Below, in pieces: positions 1,988 through 57,195 of a stretch of 64,000 bases of DNA. The notes under the pieces are model-generated. The model made no database searches. It saw nothing but the letters and a program-made list of their open reading frames with translations, and had not been told where the DNA came from. The DNA is taken from assembly GCA_024103385.1 (NCBI GenBank), contig JAGFIT010000003.1, positions 1 to 64,000 of the forward strand, written 5' to 3'. The translations under genes and the position numbers were made by a program. How positions within the stretch are numbered: position 1 is the stretch's first letter; every line of letters starts with the position of its first letter. The stretch comes from Vicingus serpentipes. GTDB taxonomy: Bacteria > Bacteroidota > Bacteroidia > Flavobacteriales_E > Vicingaceae.

Positions 1988-4027
1988 ATGAATCCATTAT
2001 TAGAAGCGTTTAATACTCCATATCAAACTACACCTTTCTCTAAGATAAAAAATGAACATTATCAACCTGCTTTTGAAAAAGCAATTGAAATCGCCAAGAA
2101 AGAGATTGATTTAATTGTAGCTAATACAGATGAACCCACATTTGAAAATACAGTTGCAGCATTAGACTATAGTGGTGAATTATTAAATCGTATTTCAAGA
2201 ATTTTCTTTAACCTTAATTCTGCAGAAACTTCTGATGAAATTCAACAAATAGCAAAAGAAGTAACTCCTCTTCTATCTGAATTCAGTAATGATGTGAACT
2301 TGAATGAAGAATTGTTTCAACGTATTAAAGTTGTTTATGAAAACAAAAGCAACTTTAGCCTTACAACAGAAGAGAATACCTTATTAGAAAAGAATTACAA
2401 AAGTTTTGTTAGGAATGGAGCAAACCTTAATGAAACGGATAAAGAAACACTAAGGACTATTGACAAAGAATTATCACAAGCTTCGTTAAATTTTGGAGAA
2501 AATGTTTTAGCCGCTACCAACAAATATGAATTACACATAACAAATGCGGATGATTTAGAAGGACTACCTGATGGCGAAATCGAAGCTGCTTCAATTACTG
2601 CTCAACAAAGAGGAAAAAAAGGCTGGGTTTTTACATTAGATCACCCGAGCTACATCCCTTTTATGACTTATGCCAACAATAGAGAACTAAGAAAAGAGTT
2701 AGCTTTTGCCTCAGGTTCTAAAACATTTAAAGGAGATGAATTAGACAATCAAAACAATATTTTAAAAATTGTCAAATTACGCTATCAAAGAGCTAACTTA
2801 TTAGGCTATAAAAACCATGCTCAATTTATACTAGAGGAACAAATGGCTAGTTCTCCTGAAAAAGTAAATGCGTTTTTAAATAGTTTAATTGAAAAATCAA
2901 AATCTGTTGCTTTGAGAGAAAATAAGCAATTAAATGATTTTGCTCAAGAATTAAATGGACCTACATCTCTTCAATCCTGGGATGTTGCCTATTATACTGA
3001 AAAATTAAAACATAAATTATTTGATTTAGATGATGAGAAGCTAAAACCTTATTTCAAATTAGACAATGTAATTAAGGGAGTATTTTCTATTGCCAACAAA
3101 TTGTATGGTTTAAATTTTAAGGAAATTACAAACATAGATAAGTACCACGAAGATGTAATTACTTATAAAGTGACTGATGAAAATAATGAATATGTTTCCA
3201 TTTTTTATGCTGATTATCACCCTCGACCAGGAAAACAAAATGGTGCATGGATGACCTCTTTTAATGATCAATACATTAAAGATGGAGTTAACAACAGGCC
3301 TCACATTGTGAATGTTTGTAACTTCACTAAACCAACACCTACCAAACCATCTTTGCTAACTTTTAATGAAGTAATTACCTTATTTCACGAGTTTGGACAT
3401 GCTCTTCACGGAATGTTAGCCAATACTCACTTTCCAGGATTATCAGGAACAAGTGTTTACAGGGATTTTGTAGAATTACCATCTCAAGTATTAGAAAATT
3501 GGTGTTATGAAAAAGAAGCATTAGAGTTATTCGCTTTTCATTATGAAACTGGTGAAGTTATTCCTATTGAGTTAATTGAAAAAATAAAAGCTTCTTCTAC
3601 ATTTATGGAAGCCACAAAAATGATGCGCCAGTTAAGTTTTGGAATAACGGATATGGCATGGCATACAATAACCCCTGACAAAATTAATAGTGTTGAACAA
3701 TTTGAAATCAAAGCAATGCAACCTACTCAAATACTTCCTCACATAAAAGGTACTTGTTTTAGTACTTCTTTTTCTCATATTTTTCAGGGAGGATATTCTT
3801 CTGGATATTACTCTTACAAATGGGCTGAAGTGTTAGATGCTGATGCTTTTGAATATTTTTCGGAGAAAGGAATATTTAATAAAGAGGTTGGACAAAAATT
3901 TAAAGAGCATATTTTATCTAAAGGAGGGGCTGAACACCCAATGGAGTTGTACAAGAAATTTAGAGGTCAAGAACCAGATGATGACGCTTTATTAAGAAGA
4001 GCTGGATTGCTAGAACTTAGTGCATAG
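1988..4027 (+). CDS. M3-family oligopeptidase (Dcp/PrlC type)
   Basis: 679 residues, full length for the thimet oligopeptidase (M3) family. The zinc site H-E-F-G-H is at residues 467-471, and the third ligand is probably Glu496 in F-V-E-L-P-S-Q. The C-terminal substrate-closing segment with S-G-Y-Y-S-Y-K-W-A, typical of Dcp and oligopeptidase A, is intact. There is no signal peptide, so the enzyme should be cytoplasmic and trim short peptides released by larger proteases. The sequence does not decide between peptidyl-dipeptidase (Dcp) and oligopeptidase (PrlC) activity. It has its own promoter element, and the next gene is convergent. Confidence 0.9.
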   Translation: MNPLLEAFNTPYQTTPFSKIKNEHYQPAFEKAIEIAKKEIDLIVANTDEPTFENTVAALDYSGELLNRISRIFFNLNSAETSDEIQQIAKEVTPLLSEFSNDVNLNEELFQRIKVVYENKSNFSLTTEENTLLEKNYKSFVRNGANLNETDKETLRTIDKELSQASLNFGENVLAATNKYELHITNADDLEGLPDGEIEAASITAQQRGKKGWVFTLDHPSYIPFMTYANNRELRKELAFASGSKTFKGDELDNQNNILKIVKLRYQRANLLGYKNHAQFILEEQMASSPEKVNAFLNSLIEKSKSVALRENKQLNDFAQELNGPTSLQSWDVAYYTEKLKHKLFDLDDEKLKPYFKLDNVIKGVFSIANKLYGLNFKEITNIDKYHEDVITYKVTDENNEYVSIFYADYHPRPGKQNGAWMTSFNDQYIKDGVNNRPHIVNVCNFTKPTPTKPSLLTFNEVITLFHEFGHALHGMLANTHFPGLSGTSVYRDFVELPSQVLENWCYEKEALELFAFHYETGEVIPIELIEKIKASSTFMEATKMMRQLSFGITDMAWHTITPDKINSVEQFEIKAMQPTQILPHIKGTCFSTSFSHIFQGGYSSGYYSYKWAEVLDADAFEYFSEKGIFNKEVGQKFKEHILSKGGAEHPMELYKKFRGQEPDDDALLRRAGLLELSA

Positions 4028-46198: not shown

Positions 46199-46219
46199 AT
46201 ACTCTAATTATTAGCGTAA

Positions 46220-47131
46220 TTACTCATGCTTTGCATCTTTTAGTATTCTAAACACATGTAATAATGCTGGAAATAAAGCGTCCATAGTTTCTGCAGCACC
46301 TTTAGTAGAACCCGGTACTCCCATCAATAATGTTTCTCCTTTCACTCCCGCTACACTCCTGCTTAACATCGAGTAAGGTGTTCTATCTTGTCCATAATTA
46401 CGAGCAGCTTCCATAATCCCTGGTATTTCTCTATCAATTAAAGGTTTTAATGCTTCCGGTGTTACATCTCTACTCGATAAGCCTGTTCCGCCCGTAAAAA
46501 TAATCATATTCGCTCCTTGAGCTTGGTATTCGTTAACCTTGTCTTGTATGGCTTCCACCTCATCCGGTATAACTGTATAATCCAATATGGCTACTTCACA
46601 TTCTTCTAATTTTTTAATAATGGCTTTTCCTGCTTTATCCTCTTTCTGCCCAGCCGAAATGGTATCTGAACAAACTACTACAGCTGCTTTTAAATCTTTT
46701 CTAAAACGATCTTTAAAATCAGATTTTCCACCCTTCTTTTCTATTAATTTGATGTGATGAATTTCTACTCCTTTATCAATAGGCTTGAGCATGTCGTACA
46801 TGTTTAATGCGACTACACTTGCTCCATGCATGGCTTCTACTTCTACTCCTGTTTTGTAAATCGTTTTTACCGTCATGGTCACCTTAATTTCCAATCCATC
46901 AATTTCATAATCAATACCAGTATATTCTATTGGCATTGGATGACAATCAGCTAATATTAAAGCAGTTTGTTTTACCCCTAATAATCCTACTGCTCTGCTC
47001 ATCGCAAAAACATCTCCTTTAGGAACTGTTCCGTTTTGTATTGCTTCTATCGTTTCTTGTTTGCTCACTTTAACAATTGCTTGTGCTGTTGCAATTCTTA
47101 ATGTACTTGATTTATGTGTTATGTCGACCAT
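46220..47131 (-). CDS. bifunctional MoaC-MogA/MoaB protein
   Basis: 303 residues, a fusion of two molybdenum-cofactor proteins. Residues 1-150 are MoaC (M-V-D-I-T-H-K at the start, D-C-H-P-M-P-I, G-V-E-V-E-A-M-H-G-A-S), which finishes cyclic pyranopterin phosphate synthesis with MoaA. Residues 150-303 are MogA/MoaB (C-S-D-T-I-S-A-G, T-G-G-T-G-L-S-S-R-D-V-T, G-V-P-G-S), which adenylates molybdopterin. The two steps are at opposite ends of the pathway. Such fusions are known in Bacteroidota. It is the last Moco gene of the operon, separated from moaE by an inserted small gene. Confidence 0.93.
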   Translation of the reverse strand: MVDITHKSSTLRIATAQAIVKVSKQETIEAIQNGTVPKGDVFAMSRAVGLLGVKQTALILADCHPMPIEYTGIDYEIDGLEIKVTMTVKTIYKTGVEVEAMHGASVVALNMYDMLKPIDKGVEIHHIKLIEKKGGKSDFKDRFRKDLKAAVVVCSDTISAGQKEDKAGKAIIKKLEECEVAILDYTVIPDEVEAIQDKVNEYQAQGANMIIFTGGTGLSSRDVTPEALKPLIDREIPGIMEAARNYGQDRTPYSMLSRSVAGVKGETLLMGVPGSTKGAAETMDALFPALLHVFRILKDAKHE

Positions 47132-47154
47132 TTTTGTTTAGTTATTTAGTTGCT

Positions 47155-47171
47155 AGTAATCAGTTACTAGT
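47155..47171. repeat. left inverted repeat of four-helix-bundle cassette
   Basis: AGTAATCAGTTACTAGT, matching in inverted orientation 16 of 17 bases of the repeat at 47616-47632. It overlaps the stop codon of the four-helix-bundle gene and is itself partly palindromic (CTAGTAA/TTACTAG at 47153-47170). Confidence 0.7.
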
Positions 47172-47516
47172 ATTTAATGATTTTATGAATCCTGCTGTAA
47201 TCTTAGAAATCTCAATACAATTTTCTCGTAATAATTCTGCTTTTTCTTTATCAAGATAGTTTAATCTTTCAGCTAAATACAACATTGATCTTACTTCACT
47301 ACATGATGCTAAGGAAATAAATAAAAATCGTTTAAAATCTGCATTACTACTCCTATCAAATCCTTCTGCAATATTGTTTGATATGGAAACAGTAGCTCTG
47401 CATATTTGATCTCTAAAACCAAAGTCTTTTGATTCTTTGAAAACCCCATAAACTTCAACTGCTAAATCTTGCGCTTTTTTCCAGGCTATTATATCTTCAA
47501 ATTTTACTATTTGCAT
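47160..47516 (-). CDS. four-helix-bundle protein (S23/IVP-like)
   Basis: 118 residues, four predicted helices. It starts with F-E-D-I-I-A-W-K-K-A-Q-D-L-A, has I-A-E-G-F-D-R near 50 and E-V-R-S-M-L-Y-L-A near 75, which identify the 23S-rRNA-intervening-sequence/four-helix-bundle family (PF05635). These proteins are found in rRNA insertions of Leptospira and as scattered copies in many Bacteroidota and Cyanobacteria; their function is unknown. It lies between moaE and moaC-mogA in the same orientation. It is bounded by inverted repeats at 47155-47171 and 47616-47632 and preceded by a 7-bp tandem array, so it looks inserted rather than part of Moco synthesis. Confidence 0.85.
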   Translation of the reverse strand: MQIVKFEDIIAWKKAQDLAVEVYGVFKESKDFGFRDQICRATVSISNNIAEGFDRSSNADFKRFLFISLASCSEVRSMLYLAERLNYLDKEKAELLRENCIEISKITAGFIKSLNTSN

Positions 47517-47552
47517 TTTTTTCTATTTTCTTATTAAAAGTAACTACTAATT

Positions 47553-47612
47553 ACTGAACACTGAATACTGAACACTGAATACTGAACACTGAATACTGAA
47601 TACTGAATACTG
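47553..47612. repeat. 7-bp tandem array ACTGAAY
   Basis: Eight and a half copies of ACTGAAC/ACTGAAT (order C T C T C T T T, then ACTG) between moaE and the four-helix-bundle gene. Seven is not a multiple of three, but the array is intergenic. Confidence 0.92.
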
Positions 47613-47615
47613 TTC

Positions 47616-47632
47616 ACTAGTTACTGATTACT
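47616..47632. repeat. right inverted repeat of four-helix-bundle cassette
   Basis: ACTAGTTACTGATTACT, inverted copy of 47155-47171 with one mismatch. It overlaps the last codons and stop of moaE. Confidence 0.7.
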
Positions 47633-48064
47633 CTTCCACTGAAAACTACTATTCTCAAAAACTTCTTTTCCGAATACTGGTGCTTTCGCTTTAATCTCTT
47701 CTGTGATATATCGACAAGCGTCAAAAGCCATAGCTCTATGTTTAGAAGACGTAAAAACAAATAAACACAACTCCCCTACTTTTACGACACCTATACTATG
47801 ATAAATGTGCGCACATGTTAAATCATATTTATCAAAAGCAGCTTCACGAATTTCATCAAACACTTTATTTGCCATTTCCGCATAAGCTGAATAATCAATG
47901 GCTATTACTTCTTTTCCTTCAATTTGATCGGCTCTTACCTGACCTAAAAATATATCGTGGGCACCAATATTTGTTTTCACCTGATGATGCGCAATTGATG
48001 TTGCTATTTTTTCAGGTGTTATTGGTCCTTCTACTAAGAAGTTTTTTATTTTCTTTTCGCTCAT
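47621..48064 (-). CDS. moaE: molybdopterin synthase catalytic subunit MoaE
   Basis: About 147 residues from ATG 48064 (M-S-E-K-K-I-K-N-F-L). Family motifs: G-A-H-D-I-F-L-G-Q-V-R near 40, Y-H-S-I-G-V-V-K-V-G-E near 95, and the conserved H-R-A-M-A-F-D-A-C near 113 with K-A-K-A-P-V-F-G-K-E. It transfers sulfur from the MoaD thiocarboxylate to cyclic pyranopterin. Upstream in-frame ATGs (48103, 48088) fall in repeat DNA and are less likely. Its last three codons and stop lie inside the inverted repeat bounding the four-helix-bundle insertion. Confidence 0.92.
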   Translation of the reverse strand: MSEKKIKNFLVEGPITPEKIATSIAHHQVKTNIGAHDIFLGQVRADQIEGKEVIAIDYSAYAEMANKVFDEIREAAFDKYDLTCAHIYHSIGVVKVGELCLFVFTSSKHRAMAFDACRYITEEIKAKAPVFGKEVFENSSFQWKSNQ

Positions 48065-48102
48065 ATTATTTTTTATATTTAATGTCATTGTTTTTAAACA
48101 CA

Positions 48103-48161
48103 CCCCTTAGAATTTCTAAGCAACAAGTTGCAAAGAACTTCTTGTCCCCTCTCAAGAGGGG
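48103..48161. repeat. intergenic palindrome (ACACCCC family)
   Basis: Between moeB and moaE: a run starting ACACCCCTTAG and several small inverted repeats, ending with CCCCTCT-CA-AGAGGGG (48146-48161). Same family as 28941-29025 and 63022-63090. Confidence 0.65.
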
Positions 48162-48164
48162 AAT

Positions 48165-49268
48165 TTACCAATTTACTATGCCCCCTTCGAGGTTAATTAA
48201 GTTATTATAATTGTATTCGTTTTCTAATTGTTCGATAGCCATCCTACTTCTTATCCCTTTCTGGCAAACTACTACTACTTGCTTATCTTTTGCTATTTGA
48301 CTTACAAACTCATCCAGTTCATCTAGTGGGGCGATTAGTACATTCCCTTTTTCTATTCTTGGTTGTTCCCATTCCCCCCTCACATCTACTACTTGAAAAT
48401 CTATTCCTTTTTCATACAACTCTTTCAAGCCATCAACAGCTATCTCTTTTGAAATCGTATTTTGTTGTTTTACGCCACAAAAGAAGTCATAATCAAAGGT
48501 CTCAAAATTAGCTGATTCGTTGATTATTTTATTGATTTGCTCTTCTGATCGTTTAACGTTTAACATCATAAATGCATTATTTAACGCATTGTAGGTTTGT
48601 AACTTACCTGATAAAGGTACTCCTATTTCTAGAATAATTTTTATCGCTTCATTTGCTTGTTGTGTTCCTATTAATCCTGGTAATACCCCAATAACACCCA
48701 CATCAGAACAACTCGGAACACTTCCTGCTTTTGGCGGTTCAGGAAACAAACACCGGTAAGAAGGCCCTCCTTTGTGATTAAATACGGAAACCTGTCCTTC
48801 AAATTTATAAATGGCTCCATAAACCAATGGTTTACCTGTAATTACGCAAGCATCGTTCACTAAATAGCGAGTAGAGAAATTGTCTGTCCCGTCTATAACA
48901 ATGTCATACTTAGAGAATATACTCAAAGCATTGCTTGTCGTTAATTTCTCAGGATAAACATCAAATTGAACCAATGGATTTTGTTGGCTTAATTTTTCTT
49001 TTGCTGCTTCCACTTTCAATTTCCCAACGTCTGCTGTGGTAAATAAAATTTGACGTTGTAAATTACTTTCATCCACCACATCAAAATCAATTAAACCAAT
49101 AGTCCCTACCCCTGCGGCCGTTAAATACTGTAACACAGGACACCCCAAACCTCCAGCACCAATTACCAACACCTTAGCGGCTTTCAGTTTTTCTTGTCCT
49201 TCTAATCCTACTTTATCTAGCAGAATATGACGATTATATCTATTTTTTTCTTTGTCTGTTAAATTCAT
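48165..49268 (-). CDS. moeB: MoeB/ThiF-like adenylyltransferase with rhodanese domain
   Basis: 367 residues. Residues 1-240 form an E1-like domain with nucleotide motif G-A-G-G-L-G-C-P and D-G-T-D-N-F-S-T-R-Y. Residues about 260-367 are a rhodanese domain with active-site C-Q-K-G-I-R-S. It adenylates the C-terminal Gly of MoaD and probably supplies the sulfur itself, as in eukaryotic MOCS3. Of the zinc-type cysteines in E. coli MoeB only the first pair region (Y-R-C-L-F-P; P-S-C-S-D) is partly kept, so zinc binding is doubtful. Gene is in the Moco operon. Confidence 0.88.
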   Translation of the reverse strand: MNLTDKEKNRYNRHILLDKVGLEGQEKLKAAKVLVIGAGGLGCPVLQYLTAAGVGTIGLIDFDVVDESNLQRQILFTTADVGKLKVEAAKEKLSQQNPLVQFDVYPEKLTTSNALSIFSKYDIVIDGTDNFSTRYLVNDACVITGKPLVYGAIYKFEGQVSVFNHKGGPSYRCLFPEPPKAGSVPSCSDVGVIGVLPGLIGTQQANEAIKIILEIGVPLSGKLQTYNALNNAFMMLNVKRSEEQINKIINESANFETFDYDFFCGVKQQNTISKEIAVDGLKELYEKGIDFQVVDVRGEWEQPRIEKGNVLIAPLDELDEFVSQIAKDKQVVVVCQKGIRSRMAIEQLENEYNYNNLINLEGGIVNW

Positions 49269-49294
49269 TTTTTACGTTCTTATTCTTTGTCTGC

Positions 49295-49311
49295 ACTTCG
49301 ACAAGCTCAGT
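49295..49311. repeat. short intergenic repeat ACTTCGACAAGCTCAGT
   Basis: Nearly the reverse complement of the motif at 91-108; both are in intergenic DNA. One base of length difference. Confidence 0.6.
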
Positions 49312-49342
49312 GTGACAAAGAATTATCAGATTTTCAAATTAA

Positions 49343-49579
49343 TTACCCTCCAGCAAAAGGGGGTAATAATGCTATTTCATCTCCATCTTTTATGATTTCA
49401 TCCATTCCTGCTAATGTTTGATTTAAAGCAAATTGATACTCCAAAGTTACTAATTGAGGGTATTTCCTTTTTAGTAATCCATCTAAATCAGCTATAGTTC
49501 TATGCTGTATCTCTACATTTTCTTCTTCCTTAGCAATAGCTTCTGCTATCATACCAAAATATTTAAGCCGTAATATCAT
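49343..49579 (-). CDS. moaD: molybdopterin synthase sulfur carrier MoaD
   Basis: 78 residues, ubiquitin-like. The C-terminus P-P-F-A-G-G has the required terminal Gly-Gly that is adenylated by MoeB and thiocarboxylated. Overlaps the mobA 3' end by 17 nt, so the two are translated from the same message. Works with MoaE, encoded after moeB. Confidence 0.92.
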   Translation of the reverse strand: MILRLKYFGMIAEAIAKEEENVEIQHRTIADLDGLLKRKYPQLVTLEYQFALNQTLAGMDEIIKDGDEIALLPPFAGG

Positions 49580-50111
49580 CTTTAGAGTTTATATTGTTAA
49601 ACACTTTTTTATTGATGTAATTCGCATCCACTATCTTACAATTCATTTGCTCAATAGCCAATTTTATTTTTCGATTTCCTTTAGTTAGTTCCTCATGAAA
49701 CAAATCCAAACAAGAACGATCATAAACACCTATTAATTGGTGTGTTTTTCCTTCTTTTTCAGGAATAACAACATCTACACCTTCCGAATTTTTAATTAAC
49801 AAGCTTAATAACTCTTCATTAACATATGGCACATCACAACTTACAACTAAATTCTTCTGCGTTTTAGAAAATTTTAATCCGGTACAAATACCCGCTAAAG
49901 GTCCTTGTTCTTTTATGATGTCCTCATAAACAATATACCCAAAAGCAGCATATTCTTCTTGATTAGAAATAATGATAATCTCATCCACCAAAGGTTGTAT
50001 TGCATCAATAACGTATTGAATCATCGGTTTCCCATCCAACAACATTAATCCTTTATCCTGTCCCATTCTAGAACTTTTCCCTCCTGCTAATATGATGCCT
50101 GTTAACGCCAT
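49563..50111 (-). CDS. mobA: molybdenum cofactor guanylyltransferase MobA
   Basis: 182 residues. Nucleotidyltransferase signature L-A-G-G-K-S-S-R-M-G-Q-D-K at 8-20, then Q-G-P-L-A-G-I and V-V-S-C-D-V-P. It adds GMP to Moco, forming the MGD cofactor used by the DMSO reductase family (nitrate, formate, arsenate and similar enzymes). Its presence indicates that such an enzyme exists elsewhere in the genome. It directly follows the tauE-like gene (stop and start adjacent). Confidence 0.92.
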   Translation of the reverse strand: MALTGIILAGGKSSRMGQDKGLMLLDGKPMIQYVIDAIQPLVDEIIIISNQEEYAAFGYIVYEDIIKEQGPLAGICTGLKFSKTQKNLVVSCDVPYVNEELLSLLIKNSEGVDVVIPEKEGKTHQLIGVYDRSCLDLFHEELTKGNRKIKLAIEQMNCKIVDANYINKKVFNNINSKDDITA

Positions 50112-50858
50112 TTATGCAAAAAATAATTTAATGGAAGCAGTCGCCAATACAAACGCCAACATATACCTCAACCCTTTATTATTAAGTTTTTTACTTCCTA
50201 AATACCCTCCTAAAAATCCTCCAACTACAGCAATGCCCACTAAAATAAAAGCTTGAAAATCAATTTTAACCCCACTACTCAATTGTCCGCCCATACCTGC
50301 TGCTGAATTTACCCATATAAATAAAGCCGAAACTGCTGCTGCTTCTTTCATCTTTCCCCATTTCATTAATAAAATTATAGGACTCAAAATAATTCCTCCA
50401 CCAATGCCAATCAATCCAGAAAAAAAACCAATTCCTCCTCCCACGGCTAAACCTTGCCAAATTTTTACTTCTTTTATTTCATTCATCTCTTTACCATAAA
50501 CATTTAATAATCTTAAAATGGCAAACACTAACAGAACTGCCAAGATTTTTTTATACAAAGAGGCATCCACTTCTATCATCCCTCCTATAAAAGCGAAAGG
50601 GATAGATGCTATTGCAAAAGTGAAAAATAGCTTCTTATTAAAATGACCTGTTTTTGCATAATGAATAAATGAAATAGCAGCTACAAATAAGTTTAATAAT
50701 AAAGCTGTTGGTTTCATAGTTTCTGGCACAAAACCAAACAAGGCCATCATTGCTAAATAACCACTAGCTCCTCCATGTCCTACTGCTGCATACATAAACG
50801 CAACGATAGGTAAAATCACTAAAAAAATCCAGATATTTTCAATTTCAAATAGATTCAT
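50112..50858 (-). CDS. TauE/SafE-family membrane protein
   Basis: 248 residues with seven to eight hydrophobic segments. Typical TauE/SafE features: G-G-A-S-G-Y-L near the start and G-L-I-G-I-G-G-G-I-I-L-S in the centre (inverted-repeat membrane protein). It could export sulfite or organosulfonates, or transport an oxyanion; the substrate cannot be told from sequence. Its start overlaps the modE-like gene stop by 4 nt and it abuts mobA, so it is translated as part of the Moco operon. Transport of molybdate or of a product of a molybdoenzyme are possible but unproven. Confidence 0.85.
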   Translation of the reverse strand: MNLFEIENIWIFLVILPIVAFMYAAVGHGGASGYLAMMALFGFVPETMKPTALLLNLFVAAISFIHYAKTGHFNKKLFFTFAIASIPFAFIGGMIEVDASLYKKILAVLLVFAILRLLNVYGKEMNEIKEVKIWQGLAVGGGIGFFSGLIGIGGGIILSPIILLMKWGKMKEAAAVSALFIWVNSAAGMGGQLSSGVKIDFQAFILVGIAVVGGFLGGYLGSKKLNNKGLRYMLAFVLATASIKLFFA

Positions 50859-51190
50859 AAATCCAATTCTAACATTACCTTATCCATGTATTTTTGGCAT
50901 TTTGTATTGAGTTTTTCGTACAACTTAATTGCTCTTTCTCCTGCTGGTGTCACCTGTGTTCCTCCTCCTCCTTTACCTCCAGAAACTCTAATTACCAAAG
51001 GTTTTTTAGCCTCTTTGTTCATTCCATCAATAATCTCCCATGCTTTTTTATAGCTCATTTTCATCGATTTTGCTGCAGCACTAATCGATCCCGATTCAAT
51101 AATTTGTTTTAACAATTCTATTCTTCCTTCGGCTAAGAAAGTCCCATTCTTCCCTTCTATCCATATTCTACTTTTTACTTTATAAGGCAT
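50855..51190 (-). CDS. ModE-like winged-helix regulator
   Basis: 111 residues. It matches the N-terminal DNA-binding domain of ModE (I-E-S-G-S-I-S-A-A-A-K-S-M-K-M-S-Y-K-K-A-W near 31-51, then V-S-G-G-K-G-G-G-G-T-Q-V-T near 69-82) with no C-terminal TOBE/molybdate-binding domain. Such short ModE forms lack the known metal sensor, so either they bind another effector or regulate by default. It starts the modE-tauE-mobA-moaD-moeB-moaE set. An FNR-like site and a promoter lie upstream. Confidence 0.88.
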   Translation of the reverse strand: MPYKVKSRIWIEGKNGTFLAEGRIELLKQIIESGSISAAAKSMKMSYKKAWEIIDGMNKEAKKPLVIRVSGGKGGGGTQVTPAGERAIKLYEKLNTKCQKYMDKVMLELDL

Positions 51191-51210
51191 AGCTATCTTC
51201 GTTATATCTA

Positions 51211-51229
51211 CAAATATACAACGAAAGTA
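51211..51229 (-). promoter_or_regulatory. overlapping -7 elements upstream of modE-like gene
   Basis: TATATTTG (51211-51218) is an exact TAnnTTTG match. TACTTTCG (51222-51229) is a TAnnTTCG variant. The centre of the second is 33 bp from the centre of the FNR-like site at 51253-51264, the same distance as for moeA. Confidence 0.4.
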
Positions 51230-51252
51230 ATCTCGTTTAAGGTTAAAAAATA

Positions 51253-51264
51253 TGATTTATATCA
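51253..51264. promoter_or_regulatory. FNR-like operator TGAT-TTAT-ATCA
   Basis: Perfect TGAT-N4-ATCA dyad between the end of moeA and the start of the modE-like gene. Shares the flanks AATn...GnTT with the site at 52487-52498. Confidence 0.5.
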
Positions 51265-51266
51265 GA

Positions 51267-52442
51267 TTAAGGTAAAAGATGTACTTCTACCAATTCTCCC
51301 TCCTTAATTGTGGCGGTCTCTTCTGAAGTAAAAATTAAACAATTGGCTAAAGAAAAAGATTGCAAGGCATCTGAAGATTGTCCTTCTAATGGTGTAACTG
51401 TTTTAAAATCAGTTAACCCTTTTAGAAAATTAGCTCTGCCCGCTTTTTTATTATATGTTCTATCGATTGGCAGTGTTAATTTTGATAATTCTGGTTGTAA
51501 AGACCCTAACATCAGTTTGATTGCAATACTAACATACTCATAAAAACAACTTAATGCTGCTGCAGGATTACCTGGCAATGCAAAAACAGTTACCTTATCT
51601 GTTTTTCCAAAATACAGTGGCTTCCCTGGTTTCTGTTTGATTTTATAAAAAATTGGCTTTACTCCATTTTTTTCTAAAGCTCCTTCAACAAAATCATAGT
51701 CTCCCACAGAAATACCTCCAGATAACAATACGAGATCATTATTTCGTAACCCCTCACTAATTACTCTTTCTGTTTCTGCTTTATCATCTTTCACCACCAC
51801 TATTGCGGGTTGAATACCCATATCTTTTAATGCTGCTTCCAACATAAAAGTATTCGATTCGTATATCTGCCCATCTAGTAGTTCGTTTCCAGGTTTTATC
51901 AACTCACTACCTGTTGCAATAATAATCACTTTAGGTTGCTCATGAACTTTAACTTGGGTTAACCCCAGAGCAGATAAAAACCCCACTCCACCGGCATTAA
52001 TTTTTGTTCCTTTTTTTAGTGCAATCGACCCTTCCTGTATTTGATTTCCTTTTAACCTAATATTCCCTCCTAACTTTAACCCTTCATCTTTTACCAGCAA
52101 TTTTCCATTAACAATCTCCGTTAATTCCTGCATTACTACCGTATTACAAGTATCAGGAACTCTAGAACCTGTAAATATTCTCACTGCTTCTCCTTTAACA
52201 ACCGACACTTCTCTTGTATCTCCTGCAGGAACCTCTTCTACAACAGCTAATGGTTGCTCAATATCCTCAAAATTAAAAGCATAACCATCCATTGCAGATT
52301 GATTGAACAATGGTATTGAAACTGGAGCTACGACATCTTCTGCCAAATAATAATTTAATGCTTCTGATGCATTAACCGATATTATCCTAGAAAGATTTGT
52401 ATTTTCAATTACTTTGTTTTTAGCCTCCTGAACCGAAATCAT
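51267..52442 (-). CDS. moeA: molybdopterin molybdenumtransferase MoeA
   Basis: 391 residues. Complete MoeA: P-L-F-N-Q-S-A-M-D-G-Y-A near 44-55, P-A-G-D-T near 72, the molybdate/MPT-AMP site with T-G-S-R-V-P-D, G-S-E-L-I-K-P-G near 178, and S-G-G-I-S-V-G-D-Y-D. It inserts molybdenum from molybdate into adenylated molybdopterin. First gene of the minus-strand Moco region; its upstream gap holds an FNR-like operator 33 bp from a TAATTTTG promoter element, and the divergent Crp/Fnr regulator gene. Confidence 0.95.
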   Translation of the reverse strand: MISVQEAKNKVIENTNLSRIISVNASEALNYYLAEDVVAPVSIPLFNQSAMDGYAFNFEDIEQPLAVVEEVPAGDTREVSVVKGEAVRIFTGSRVPDTCNTVVMQELTEIVNGKLLVKDEGLKLGGNIRLKGNQIQEGSIALKKGTKINAGGVGFLSALGLTQVKVHEQPKVIIIATGSELIKPGNELLDGQIYESNTFMLEAALKDMGIQPAIVVVKDDKAETERVISEGLRNNDLVLLSGGISVGDYDFVEGALEKNGVKPIFYKIKQKPGKPLYFGKTDKVTVFALPGNPAAALSCFYEYVSIAIKLMLGSLQPELSKLTLPIDRTYNKKAGRANFLKGLTDFKTVTPLEGQSSDALQSFSLANCLIFTSEETATIKEGELVEVHLLP

Positions 52443-52455
52443 TTTATTGTTTTAG

Positions 52456-52463
52456 CAAAATTA
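52456..52463 (-). promoter_or_regulatory. -7 promoter element TAATTTTG
   Basis: TAnnTTTG match (CAAAATTA on plus) 14 nt upstream of the moeA start codon. Confidence 0.45.
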
Positions 52464-52486
52464 AACTGCAATTTAAATTGAAAATC

Positions 52487-52498
52487 TGATTTATGTCA
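52487..52498. promoter_or_regulatory. FNR-like operator TGAT-TTAT-GTCA
   Basis: TGAT-N4-rTCA dyad, 12 of 13 bases identical to the site upstream of the modE-like gene (TGATTTATATCAG). Its centre is 33 bp from the centre of the moeA -7 element, near the -41.5 position of class II FNR/CRP activation. It is also 52 nt upstream of the regulator gene itself. Confidence 0.55.
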
Positions 52499-52550
52499 GT
52501 TTTTGTTCCAATTATTTGAATGAATTTTGATTACCCCTAATTTATTTAGT

Positions 52551-53270
52551 ATGACCAATAATAAAAACATTCCCACTTCATGTCCTCAATGCGAACATAA
52601 AATATCAGGAAATTCGCTTTTTTGTTGCCTCAACATAGATGAAATTAATGAGGTAAGTGACTCCAAGCGAAACATGCTTTTTAAAAAAGGTCAAACCATT
52701 TTTAATGAAGGCAACCATCCGCATGGAATATATTGTATTCATAAAGGAAAAGTTAAAATTCATAAGCTAGGTGAAGAAGGTAAAGATCAAATTGTACGTT
52801 TGGCTAAGGATAATAATTTTATTGGGTATAGAGCAATATTAGGTGGTGACACCTATATGGCTTCTGCAACTGCAATAGAAGATACTCAAGTATGTTTTAT
52901 TCCAAAAGAAGCCATTACCAATTTGATTAAATCCAATTCCTCTTTTTCTTTTTCTCTGTTAGGATTATTATCTGACGATTTAAAGAGAGCTGAAAATAAA
53001 ATTACCAATATGGCTCAAAAACATGTAAGAGAACGTATAGCCGAAGCTATATTATTATTAAAGGAAGCATATGGTTTTAAGGAAGATGGGGTAAGTATAG
53101 ATTCATCATTAACTAGAAAAGAGCTAGCTAATATTGCAGGAACAACAACCGAAACGTCTATAAGAATTTTGTCAGAGTTTCAAAAAGATAAAATGGTAGA
53201 ATTAGATGGAAAAAATATTAAAATAACTAACCTAAACTCCTTAATTAAAACAGCAAATATTTTCGATTAA
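52551..53270 (+). CDS. Crp/Fnr-family transcriptional regulator
   Basis: 239 residues from ATG 52551. N-terminal cysteines C11-x-x-C14 and C25-C26 precede the cNMP-type beta-barrel (about 40-140). A dimer helix (about 140-165) is followed by a winged HTH with recognition helix T-T-E-T-S-I-R (E201, R205), conserving the Glu and Arg that contact the GA of TGA half-sites in FNR/CRP. The cysteines could hold an iron-sulfur cluster as in FNR, though spacing differs. It probably regulates the adjacent Moco genes through the TGAT-N4-ATCA sites. An in-frame TTG at 52527 is rejected in favour of the ATG. Confidence 0.85.
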   Translation: MTNNKNIPTSCPQCEHKISGNSLFCCLNIDEINEVSDSKRNMLFKKGQTIFNEGNHPHGIYCIHKGKVKIHKLGEEGKDQIVRLAKDNNFIGYRAILGGDTYMASATAIEDTQVCFIPKEAITNLIKSNSSFSFSLLGLLSDDLKRAENKITNMAQKHVRERIAEAILLLKEAYGFKEDGVSIDSSLTRKELANIAGTTTETSIRILSEFQKDKMVELDGKNIKITNLNSLIKTANIFD

Positions 53271-53302
53271 AATATAAACCTATTTATTATCATACAGTTA
53301 CA

Positions 53303-53314
53303 TGATTCAAATCA
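53303..53314. promoter_or_regulatory. FNR-like operator TGAT-TCAA-ATCA
   Basis: Perfect TGAT-N4-ATCA palindrome immediately upstream of a TTG (-33) and 34 bp from a TATATTTA -7 element of the orphan cNMP-domain gene. Confidence 0.5.
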
Positions 53315-53338
53315 TTGTTTTCGATTCCAAAGACTAAT

Positions 53339-53346
53339 TATATTTA
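53339..53346 (+). promoter_or_regulatory. -7 promoter element TATATTTA
   Basis: One base off TAnnTTTG, with TTG at 53315-53317 as a possible -33 element (21 nt between). It supports TTG 53360 as the translation start. Confidence 0.35.
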
Positions 53347-53359
53347 CTACAAATTTAAA

Positions 53360-53770
53360 TTGAACAACATCAAGTCTAAATTAAATAAAAGCATTCTAAA
53401 GGATTTAATCGAAGAGATTAAATCCAGTTCAAGAGTATTTACTATTGAAAAAGGAGATTACCTATTTACGGAAAACTCTCCATTAGAGTTTGTTTATTTA
53501 ATAGATGAAGGAGAGGTGGCTTTATTAAAATTAAATAAAAATAATGATTCCATTGAATTGATGAATCAACAAGGTGGTGACATCGTTGGTGTAGACATTT
53601 TATTTAAGAATTCTCTTTGCGATTATTCTGCTGTAGCTAAAAAGTCGTGCAAATTATACCGAACATCTCTAGAAAAATTTCAACACATTTTAAGTCATCA
53701 AAAAGAAACCTCCATGGAACTAATGAGGTATCTTTGCTCTCTTCTCAACCAACTAGAAAGTAAAATATAA
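53360..53770 (+). CDS. orphan cNMP-type sensor domain without HTH
   Basis: 136 residues. One Crp-like effector domain: I-E-K-G-D-Y-L-F-T-E-N-S near 28-39, V-Y-L-I-D-E-G-E-V-A-L-L near 46-57 and G-G-D-I-V-G-V-D near 75-82. The chain ends after the C-helix with no DNA-binding domain, and no HTH remnant follows in any frame that I could see. It may bind a ligand or the dimer helix of the neighbouring regulator. The start TTG 53360 is preferred because a TTG at 53315 would lie within the promoter. An FNR-like site stands upstream. It follows the Crp/Fnr gene on the same strand but has its own promoter. Confidence 0.72.
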   Translation: MNNIKSKLNKSILKDLIEEIKSSSRVFTIEKGDYLFTENSPLEFVYLIDEGEVALLKLNKNNDSIELMNQQGGDIVGVDILFKNSLCDYSAVAKKSCKLYRTSLEKFQHILSHQKETSMELMRYLCSLLNQLESKI

Positions 53771-53937
53771 CTCTGCTCATAAAACTTATAAAAAAATAAA
53801 GGAATAAAACCGTTCATCCTCATCTAATACCTTCTAACAAATAATTTGGTTATTTGATTAAATGTTCAAGTTATTATATTCTTTTTAATCCAAAATTTAT
53901 ATATTTTTAGTCTTTCAACTAAAAAAAATCTACAATC

Positions 53938-56900
53938 ATGGTAATTAAAACGAATATCAAAAAACTTCTATATACTGGGATTTTCATTTTCTCCATAATT
54001 ACACAAAGTGTTGTTTTTGCTCAAGGCTTTGAAGGGTACTACCGTTTTCCAGCTATACATGGTAATAAAATAGTATTTGCTGCTGAAGGAGATTTATGGA
54101 CTGTTCCTCTCACTGGTGGCTTAGCTCAACGTTTAACAACTCATACTGAAGAAGAAACTTATCCTGTTATCTCTCCAGATGGAAAAACCATTGCTTTTTC
54201 TGCAAGTTATGAAGGACCAACAGAAATTTATACCATGCCCATAGATGGAGGATTAACTACTAGATGGACCTATGAGGGAGATGCTTCTATAGCCAACTGT
54301 TGGACTCCTGATGGAAAAATTGCTTACGCTACTCGAGCTTTTTCTACTTTGCCTGATTATCAAATAGTAACTATTGATACTAAAACAAAACAAAAAACAA
54401 GAATTCCTTTAAGTCAGGCAAGTGAAGCTTCTTTTAGTGGCGATGGAAAAACGATTTTCTTTGTTCGTCCTGCTTTCCATAGAAATGTTACAAAACGATA
54501 CGAAGGTGGTACTGCTCGTCAAATATGGAAATTTACTGAGGGAGAAGCGGAAGCTATTCAATTGAGTAAAGGACATAAAGGAGAAAGTCATCATCCTATA
54601 TGGGCTAATGGCAGAGTTTATTTTATCACAGGTAGAGACGGAACCATGAACATCTGGTCGATGGATGAAAATGGAGAAAACCTAACTCAACACACCAAAC
54701 ATGAGGGTTTTGATGTTCGGTATGCTAAAATTTCTGGAAATAATATTGTCTATCAATTAGGTGCCGATATCTGGCACTACGATATTGCAAAAAATACACA
54801 ACAAAAAATTGACATTCGTTTAGCTTCCGATTTAGACCAATTAAGAGAAAAATGGGAAACCAATCCATCAAAATATATTACCTCTGCATTTCCTGATAAA
54901 AAAGGGGAGCGTGTTGTTATTACCGCTAGAGGCAGAATTTTTGTTGCTCCTATAAAAACAGGAAGGTTTGTAGAGTTTACGGATAAAAGTAATGTTCGTT
55001 ACCGTGATGCCATTTTCTCTCCAGATGGAAAGAACATCTATACGTTGTCTGATGAAAGCGAAGAATTTGAGTTTATAAGTCTGCCATCTAATGGTATTGG
55101 AAAAAGTAAACCAATCACCAAAGACGGAAAAATATTAAGGTATGCCGGAATTCCTTCTCCTGATGGAAAATGGATAGCATATGATGATTTAGCTAATAAT
55201 ATGTATTTATTAAATCTTGCAACTGGAGAAAGTAAAAAAATCTCCACCAATGAAGAAGGAATCTATTCTTTTTCATGGTCGCCAGACAGTAAATATATTG
55301 CTTTTGTGCAAGTAGCAGAAAACACCATGGCTCAAGTGATGGTTTATGATATTTCTACTAACGAAACATTTCCTATTACTAGTGATAGAGCAAACAGTAG
55401 ACAACCTAAATGGAGTCCTGATGGGGAGTTTATCTACTTTTTATCTGATAGAAGTTTTACCACTATAGTAGGAAGTCCTTGGGGAACTAGACAACCTGAA
55501 CCTTACTTTGATGCAAGTGAAAAAGTATACCATATTGCGCTCCAAAAAGGAACAAAATCCCCATTTCGTAAAGAGGATGAATTAAGTAATAATGATAAAC
55601 CTGCTGACAAGAAAGAAGATAATAAATCAGACGGTGTTCAAGTGATTATTGATAAAGAAGGAATCATAGAACGAATTACTGAAGTTCCTGTTAAGCCGGG
55701 AAATTACAGAGGTTTAGCTGTGAATGACAAAGCCATCTATGTAATGTCAAGTAGCACTGGAGTAGATGCATCTACAGATTTATGTGTAATTAAGATTACT
55801 AATGAAGAAGAGGTAAAACTAACAACTATGGTAGATGGTGTAGATAACTTTACGCTTACCGAAGATGGCAAAAAAATATTAGTGAAAAAAGGAAGCAATT
55901 ATTACATGGTTGGTGCTGGAACTGGTAAAGTTGGAAGCCTAAATGATGACAAAATTGACTTAAACGGATGGAAATTTTCCATTAACCCAAGAGAAGAATG
56001 GAAACAATTATTTACTGATGCATGGAGAATGGAACGTGATTATTTTTACGACAAAAACATGCACGGAGTTAATTGGAAAGCAATGCACGATAAATATTTT
56101 CCGTTAACAGATCGTGTGACCACCAGACTTGAATTATCAGATTTAATAGGACGATTTGTTGGCGAATTGGCCGCTTTACACACCAGTGTTAGAGGAGGAG
56201 ATATTAGAAGCGATAATGAGAATATTAGTGTTGCTGATCTTGGTGCACAATTTACTAGAGATGAAAAAAGTGGTGGTTTTAAAATTGAATACATCTATCA
56301 AGCTGATCCTGATTATCCTGATGAAAGATCTCCATTAGATGATCCTTATTTAGATTTTCAAATTGGAGATGTTATTACCAATATAAATGGGAAAGAAGCA
56401 TTAGGTGCTATTGATATAGGAGAACTGATTAGAAATCAAGCTGGAAAACAAGTTAGAGTTACTTATAAACGTGGCTCAACCACTAAAGAAGCTGTTGTGG
56501 TACCGATAAGCAGTTCATTTAATCTACGCTATGATGATTGGGAGTACACTAGACGATTAGCAGTGGAAAAAAAGAGCAACAATAAAATTGGCTATGTACA
56601 CCTCCAAGCAATGGGAACTAACGACATCAATCAATGGTATAGAGAGTTTTATCCTGTATTTAATAAACAAGGATTAATTGTAGATGTAAGACACAATAAT
56701 GGTGGGAATATTGATAGTTTTATATTGGAAAAATTATTAAGAAAAGCATGGATGTACTGGAAATCAAGAGAAGGAAACCCTAGTTGGAATATGCCTTATG
56801 CTTTTAGAGGGCATATTGTTGTTTTAGTAGATGGAAATACGGCTTCTGATGGAGAAGCTTTTGCAGAAGGGTTTAAAGAATTAGATTTAGGTACCTCTAT

Positions 56901-57195
56901 TGGTATGCGAACTTGGGGTGGAGAAATATGGCTAAATAGCTCCAACCGTTTAAGCGATGATGGTTATGCAAGAGCTCCAATGCATGGAGTATATAACGAT
57001 AAGGGAGAATGGGTAATTGAAGGTCATGGATTTGTGCCAGATATTGAAGTGGATAATTTACCACACAGAACATTTAAAGGTGAGGATGCACAACTAGAGA
57101 AAGCTTTAGAAGTGCTAGAAAAACTAATCAAAGAAGACCCTAGAGATGTTCCTCCTGTGCCAGCCTATCCTGATAAATCTTTTAAAAACAAATAA
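53938..57195 (+). CDS. tricorn-like S41 peptidase
   Basis: 1085 residues with a signal peptide (about 1-29, V-F-A-Q). An N-terminal WD40-like/beta-propeller region (about 40-540) repeats the S-P-D-G-K motif. It is followed by a C1-type domain, a PDZ-like domain (about 800-870) and the S41 catalytic core with N-T-A-S-D-G-E containing nucleophile Ser970. H-T-S-V-R-G-G near 747 is a candidate catalytic His. Family members (tricorn protease homologues) degrade oligopeptides from larger proteases; here it would be periplasmic or outer-membrane associated. It is convergent with the copper ATPase gene, sharing a terminator. Confidence 0.9.
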   Translation: MVIKTNIKKLLYTGIFIFSIITQSVVFAQGFEGYYRFPAIHGNKIVFAAEGDLWTVPLTGGLAQRLTTHTEEETYPVISPDGKTIAFSASYEGPTEIYTMPIDGGLTTRWTYEGDASIANCWTPDGKIAYATRAFSTLPDYQIVTIDTKTKQKTRIPLSQASEASFSGDGKTIFFVRPAFHRNVTKRYEGGTARQIWKFTEGEAEAIQLSKGHKGESHHPIWANGRVYFITGRDGTMNIWSMDENGENLTQHTKHEGFDVRYAKISGNNIVYQLGADIWHYDIAKNTQQKIDIRLASDLDQLREKWETNPSKYITSAFPDKKGERVVITARGRIFVAPIKTGRFVEFTDKSNVRYRDAIFSPDGKNIYTLSDESEEFEFISLPSNGIGKSKPITKDGKILRYAGIPSPDGKWIAYDDLANNMYLLNLATGESKKISTNEEGIYSFSWSPDSKYIAFVQVAENTMAQVMVYDISTNETFPITSDRANSRQPKWSPDGEFIYFLSDRSFTTIVGSPWGTRQPEPYFDASEKVYHIALQKGTKSPFRKEDELSNNDKPADKKEDNKSDGVQVIIDKEGIIERITEVPVKPGNYRGLAVNDKAIYVMSSSTGVDASTDLCVIKITNEEEVKLTTMVDGVDNFTLTEDGKKILVKKGSNYYMVGAGTGKVGSLNDDKIDLNGWKFSINPREEWKQLFTDAWRMERDYFYDKNMHGVNWKAMHDKYFPLTDRVTTRLELSDLIGRFVGELAALHTSVRGGDIRSDNENISVADLGAQFTRDEKSGGFKIEYIYQADPDYPDERSPLDDPYLDFQIGDVITNINGKEALGAIDIGELIRNQAGKQVRVTYKRGSTTKEAVVVPISSSFNLRYDDWEYTRRLAVEKKSNNKIGYVHLQAMGTNDINQWYREFYPVFNKQGLIVDVRHNNGGNIDSFILEKLLRKAWMYWKSREGNPSWNMPYAFRGHIVVLVDGNTASDGEAFAEGFKELDLGTSIGMRTWGGEIWLNSSNRLSDDGYARAPMHGVYNDKGEWVIEGHGFVPDIEVDNLPHRTFKGEDAQLEKALEVLEKLIKEDPRDVPPVPAYPDKSFKNK

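Follow-up and report, generated by a model that had tools for sequence, protein, structure and literature searches.

The window analysed here, a stretch of 64,000 nucleotides from Vicingus serpentipes (contig JAGFIT010000003.1, positions 1 to 64,000), contains a cluster of genes for the molybdenum cofactor (Moco). The Moco gene moeA (51267..52442, minus strand) is divergent from the gene of a 239-aa Crp/Fnr regulator (52551..53270, plus strand), which we call FnrA. On the other side of moeA lie a modE-like gene (50855..51190, minus strand) and the remaining Moco operon (46220..50858, minus strand), comprising a TSUP permease, mobA, moaD, moeB, moaE, a 23S-IVP-like gene and a moaC/moaB fusion. 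The 23S-IVP-like gene, a homolog of the 23S rRNA-intervening-sequence protein (PF05635), is located at 47160-47516, between moaE and moaC/B; in genomes G026 and G018 (L145, L153), frames of 115-119 aa whose family was not recognised adjoin moaE. The 111-aa modE-like protein scored 92.8 bits against TIGR00637, just under the cut-off of 98.5, and a domain search found no C-terminal molybdate-binding (Mop) domains in it. As it thus appears to consist of the ModE N-terminal HTH without the molybdate-binding domains, this protein may not sense molybdate directly. Downstream of fnrA, an orphan gene (53360..53770, plus strand) encodes a 136-aa cNMP-domain protein without an HTH; its TTG at 53360 is conserved in relatives and is probably the start codon. 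Further downstream, 53938-57195 encodes a large tricorn-like S41 protease with a PD40/WD40 propeller, which has no dyad of its own of the kind described below.

Three palindromic sites in this cluster, which a first-pass annotation had described as TGAT-N4-ATCA-like dyads, are present at exactly the positions it gave. The dyad TGATTTATATCA (51253..51264), between moeA and the modE operon, would serve modE-TSUP-mobA-moaD-moeB-moaE-moaC/B on the minus strand, and TGATTCAAATCA (53303..53314) lies upstream of the orphan gene; both match TGAT-N4-ATCA perfectly. The remaining dyad, TGATTTATGTCA (CTGATTTATGTCAG; 52487..52498), is common to moeA and the regulator and has one mismatch to TGAT-N4-ATCA and none to TGAY-N4-RTCA. 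The sites at 51253 and 52487 do share 12 of 13 core bases, as had been noted (TGATTTATATCAG and TGATTTATGTCAG). Because 62 matches to TGAT-N4-ATCA with one mismatch were found across the whole AT-rich window against 51 expected, which is no enrichment, a motif count by itself is no proof of function. The pattern TGAY-N4-RTCA occurred three times in the 1115 bp of intergenic DNA of the Moco cluster (46200-53900), where a first-order Markov model predicts 0.05 occurrences (P(>=3) about 2e-5), and was not found in the remaining ~5030 bp of the window's 6.1 kb of intergenic DNA.

The dyads are combined with promoter-like sequence in a constant geometry. All three -7 elements that the first-pass annotation had placed 33-34 bp away are present: TACTTTCG (51222..51229, minus strand) for the modE operon, TAATTTTG (52456..52463, minus strand) for moeA and TATATTTA (53339..53346, plus strand) for the orphan gene. 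Their centres and those of the dyads at 51253, 52487 and 53303 are 33, 33 and 34 bp apart, respectively. Together with its dyad, TAATTTTG is a perfect match to the composite of operator and -7 element, and TACTTTCG matches with one mismatch. Absent from the first-pass annotation was a -7-like element on the regulator side, GAATTTTG (52522..52529, plus strand), whose centre is likewise 33 bp from dyad 52487. This dyad is therefore flanked on both sides, by TAATTTTG towards moeA and by GAATTTTG towards fnrA, and from the latter autoregulation of fnrA is predicted.

Among 187 gene-facing pairs of site and orientation, many of them homologous across related genomes and hence not independent, the distance between the centres of TAnnTTTG and the dyad was exactly 33 bp in 27, and in 43 when TAnnTTTR was used; the next spacing for TAnnTTTG accounted for at most 6. 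The TAnnTTTG -7 element is that of the Bacteroidota -33/-7 promoter type. At class II Crp/Fnr promoters, some 41.5 bp separate the start from the centre of the activator dyad upstream of it, and the 33-bp distance between dyad and -7 element is as expected for sites of this predicted class. The genome of V. serpentipes holds ten perfect composite matches, five of which fall within the window Moco cluster and a nitrate reductase (nar) island described below, i.e. within about 0.95% of the genome (binomial about 2e-8, calculated by hand). Those outside the nar and Moco loci (C8, C33:42613, C49 and C83) adjoin genes that are not obviously respiratory, and are likely chance matches or minor members.

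Comparison with related genomes, which the first-pass annotation had asked for, showed the dyads to be conserved at all three places. The adjacency of moeA and FnrA is kept in relatives at 66-70% identity, and the dyad between them is intact in all eight relatives that have both genes on the contig, where it reads CTGATTTATGTCAG or nearly so. In a further relative (L012), represented by a contig fragment without moeA, it is degenerate. The modE dyad occupies the same position in six relatives (G044, L084; G024, L093; G019, L098; G025, L144; G004, L159; G006, L085) and was not found at the modE operon of G035, a genome without nar genes. Upstream of the orphan gene the dyad is found in 11/11 homologs in the family, including three that are located elsewhere in the genome. 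Most of the distant Bacteroidia regulators (50-58% identity) also have a dyad upstream; some of these regulators sit beside narGHJI (L112, L115) or a moeA-modE operon (L114, L121).

A search of V. serpentipes' own genome with the pattern TGAYTTANRTCA led to a second contig, C33, which encodes narG, narH, narJ, narI, a cytochrome c, porin-like and hemerythrin-like proteins, moaA, two Crp/Fnr regulators and two MFS transporters that we read as NarK. Its nar island has 9 dyads in 1643 bp of intergenic DNA, and none was found in the 4146 intergenic bases of the rest of C33. In the nar islands of relatives, 90 dyads were counted in 33105 bp of intergenic DNA, where three control patterns made by rearrangement gave 1, 1 and 4; many of the counted sites are homologous between related genomes and hence not independent. 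The narK genes are separated from the other nar-island genes by a CBS/DUF294 nucleotidyltransferase-like gene and a gene for a PAS + RNase_T exonuclease protein (C33, L057:520-2010 and 2112-3956), an arrangement seen in several genomes of genus g1. moeA is present in narG-minus genomes too, usually within an operon with other Moco genes; since the moeA loci of 12 such nar-minus genomes hold just one dyad in 6068 bp of intergenic DNA, the dyads track nitrate respiration rather than moeA. The first-pass annotation had predicted a compact regulon for Moco production. Its operators, their class II-like geometry, its Moco targets and adjacent Crp/Fnr regulator stand and gain comparative support, but the regulon is neither compact nor confined to Moco, as the nar island shares the operators. 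Because the same operators are positioned at a nar island with its own moaA, supply of Moco for NarG is the likeliest purpose. A second Moco enzyme of the genome, formate-dehydrogenase-like and encoded on C82, has no nearby dyad and is for this reason left out of the regulon.

The operator itself differs from that of FNR. The search pattern itself fixes the inner TGAY-N4-RTCA; of the outer bases next to it, over 103 sites (206 half-sites), 77% are A, 15% C, 5% G and 3% T, while T makes up 37% of the flanking background. The operator is thus (A/C)TGAY-N4-RTCA(T/G), unlike the classical FNR box TTGAT-N4-ATCAA, in which the outer base is T. In FNR, Ser212 is the residue linked to this outer base. 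In the recognition helix of FnrA, TETSIR, the Glu201 and Arg205 pointed out earlier are indeed kept and are invariant in 18 homologs; the FNR residues E-x2-S-R are not matched, and the alignment places Ile204 at the position of Ser212. The classical FNR recognition code thus does not apply, the outer base being A or C rather than T, and the sites are FNR-like but not strict FNR boxes, with the outer T/A missing and Ile in place of Ser212. The description as FNR-type operators in the first-pass annotation is to be narrowed in this sense.

FnrA has the Crp/Fnr architecture, with PF00027 (cNMP-fold sensor) and PF13545 (HTH_Crp_2) both above their cut-offs, and its closest PDB chain is 2gau, a Crp/Fnr family protein. 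The best NCBIfam model was FNR (NF008365) at 103 bits, which falls far short of the curated cut-off of 228. Cys11, Cys14 and Cys115 are invariant across the 18 homologs and Cys25 is found in nearly all; Cys115 aligns with the central cysteine of FNR, completing a set of three N-terminal cysteines and one central, with a spacing of C-x2-C-x10-C compared to C-x2-C-x5-C in FNR. Outright membership of FnrA in FNR is ruled out by the box, the recognition helix and the model cut-off. Among 46 genomes of the family, 16 of which have narG, an FnrA-like regulator was found in all 16 narG-positive and in 3 of the 30 narG-negative genomes (Fisher 1e-9), and in relatives FnrA often lies ~7-20 kb from narG on the same contig. 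Genome G044, with fnrA and Moco sites and no narG match, was considered as a natural knock-out and dropped: FnrB lies beside narK on another of its contigs, and narG may therefore sit in an assembly gap.

We propose, with a probability of about 80%, that a Crp/Fnr-type regulon turns on nitrate respiration together with Moco for its nitrate reductase, and that the dyads serve as its class II activator sites. The regulon would be split over two contigs, with moeA, the modE-to-moaC/B operon, the regulator and the orphan cNMP gene in the window, and narGHJI, the two NarK-like transporters, moaA and two further Crp/Fnr regulators on C33. Since the Moco genes have conserved palindromes that match those of the nar genes in kind, Moco is predicted to be made when the cell turns from oxygen to nitrate respiration. 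FnrA (52551-53270) is our best guess for the reader of the dyads; it would be the main one, acting as an activator, also of its own gene from the common dyad 52487. The conservation of its cysteines suggests that FnrA could sense O2 or NO via an Fe-S cluster on Cys11, Cys14, Cys25 and Cys115.

That the dyads are chance AT-rich palindromes next to ordinary promoter-like sequence would agree with the lack of window-wide enrichment of TGAT-N4-ATCA at one mismatch, but conservation in relatives, enrichment over the control patterns and the fixed promoter spacing leave this explanation with a negligible probability, and we regard it as ruled out by the first two. It is also improbable that the dyads repress, with the regulator silencing the Moco genes under a particular redox condition. 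Repressor sites are usually variable in position or overlap the start, whereas the exact 33-bp spacing recurs over dozens of promoters, the nar island included, and corresponds to the class II activator position. A precedent for repression does exist in E. coli, where FNR represses moeAB while it activates moaABCDE (PMC10845959).

FnrB (16273) and CrpC (28780) on C33 and the cbb3-linked FnrC57 on C57 all keep the E-x3-R helix, and with several such paralogs in the genome the site reader is not unique; overlapping reading of the sites by paralogs is likely. The operators and the nitrate/Moco regulon could thus be real with one of these three as the main reader and FnrA as a mere target, which we consider possible but rather unlikely. 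FnrB retains a Cys cluster and the Ser-Arg pair of the FNR type, and in genome G042, with neither narG nor an FnrA-like regulator, the orphan dyad is still present; if functional there, it must be usable by another paralog. On the other hand, it is the FnrA-like regulator that accompanies narG in 16/16 genomes, while close FnrB orthologs are absent from G004 and from several narG-positive g6 genomes, all of which still have dyads. FnrC57 lacks a dyad at its own divergent promoter, and the outer A/C would suit Ile204 of FnrA better than the Ser of FnrB. We thus retain FnrA as the preferred main reader.

Coupling of Moco synthesis to an FNR-like protein is of a known kind. In E. coli, FNR controls narGHJI. 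As in V. serpentipes, a Crp/Fnr regulator there ties both NarGHI nitrate respiration and Moco synthesis (for the Moco genes, PMC10845959) to anaerobiosis. In contrast to E. coli, the outer T is nearly absent from the box described here (3% at -1), Ile replaces Ser212 in the regulator, the promoters belong to the Bacteroidota -33/-7 type, the moeA and the modE operon each have a predicted class II activator site, and the regulator gene adjoins moeA and uses a common operator. In Proteobacteria, too, several Crp/Fnr paralogs control the entry into nitrate respiration or denitrification, for example FnrL and the Dnrs in Dinoroseobacter and FnrP, NarR and NnrR in Paracoccus (PMC5398030, PMC4771820). 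Compared with these FNR/DNR/NnrR/NarR systems, the present one differs in phylum, in the outer operator base, in the C-x2-C-x10-C spacing and in its HTH-less cNMP partner gene. For Bacteroidota, Crp/Fnr proteins of Flavobacteriales MAGs were assigned to carbon sensing by MalR similarity and matrix, in a meta-regulon study whose authors stress missing prior knowledge for some community members (PMC8510549). These proteins belong to the same superfamily and order as the FnrA family, whose cysteines are FNR-like and whose proposed regulon is that of nitrate and Moco. In the literature that we searched, no operator for nitrate respiration is described in the FnrA-bearing Bacteroidota group. Here a whole regulon is legible from sequence: its operator is FNR-like in altered form, the spacing to the unusual -33/-7 promoters of this phylum is fixed at 33 bp, and nitrate reductase would be controlled together with its cofactor. 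TGAY-N4-RTCA-N23-TAnnTTTR offers a search pattern for anaerobic regulons in other Bacteroidota.

The orphan gene, always behind the same dyad, makes the role of an HTH-less partner a testable question. Structure prediction (pLDDT 81) gave a CRP-type sensor domain with a single helix at the end, and no HTH was found in its homologs across 11 genomes. In the set tested, its best matches outside its own family were second Crp/Fnr proteins encoded directly downstream of FnrA in distant relatives, and the orphan seems to derive from such a second regulator by loss of the DNA-binding half, and to have been kept since. It might, tentatively, be a dedicated component of the regulon: a descendant of the second Crp/Fnr protein that lost the HTH and kept a C-terminal helix at the place of CRP dimerisation. 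Expressed from the same dyad, it would form pairs with FnrA or another paralog, or bind a ligand as a sensor, and thereby damp or tune the nitrate/Moco regulon. HTH-less CRP-domain proteins are known from Flavobacteriia through CrpR1a of Riemerella anatipestifer, removal of which has a phenotype (PMC13277301). In CrpR1a the CRP part has 179 aa and the HTH is encoded in a separate overlapping small ORF; the orphan has 136 aa, no HTH in the 11 genomes and a dyad in front of it. Crp-like frames of 150 aa in L088, L090, L093 and L098 were considered as further truncated proteins and rejected, the upstream sequence suggesting ordinary regulators called from internal ATGs.

Full-length second Crp/Fnr genes downstream of FnrA are located at L085:3244-3936, L087:6898-7545, L108:6816-7550, L113:6791-7528 and L115:6816-7520. 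The dyad ahead of them mostly reads TGAYTC, as the orphan dyad does. Their recognition helix (e.g. TTKNYLYK) is without E-x3-R, and they should therefore read another sequence. Elsewhere, on contig C76 of genome G000 (49033-49044, L053), a long perfect palindrome, TAAACTGATATAAATCAGTTTA, lies upstream of a small cysteine-containing gene by an RND-like transporter, and is a possible further target.
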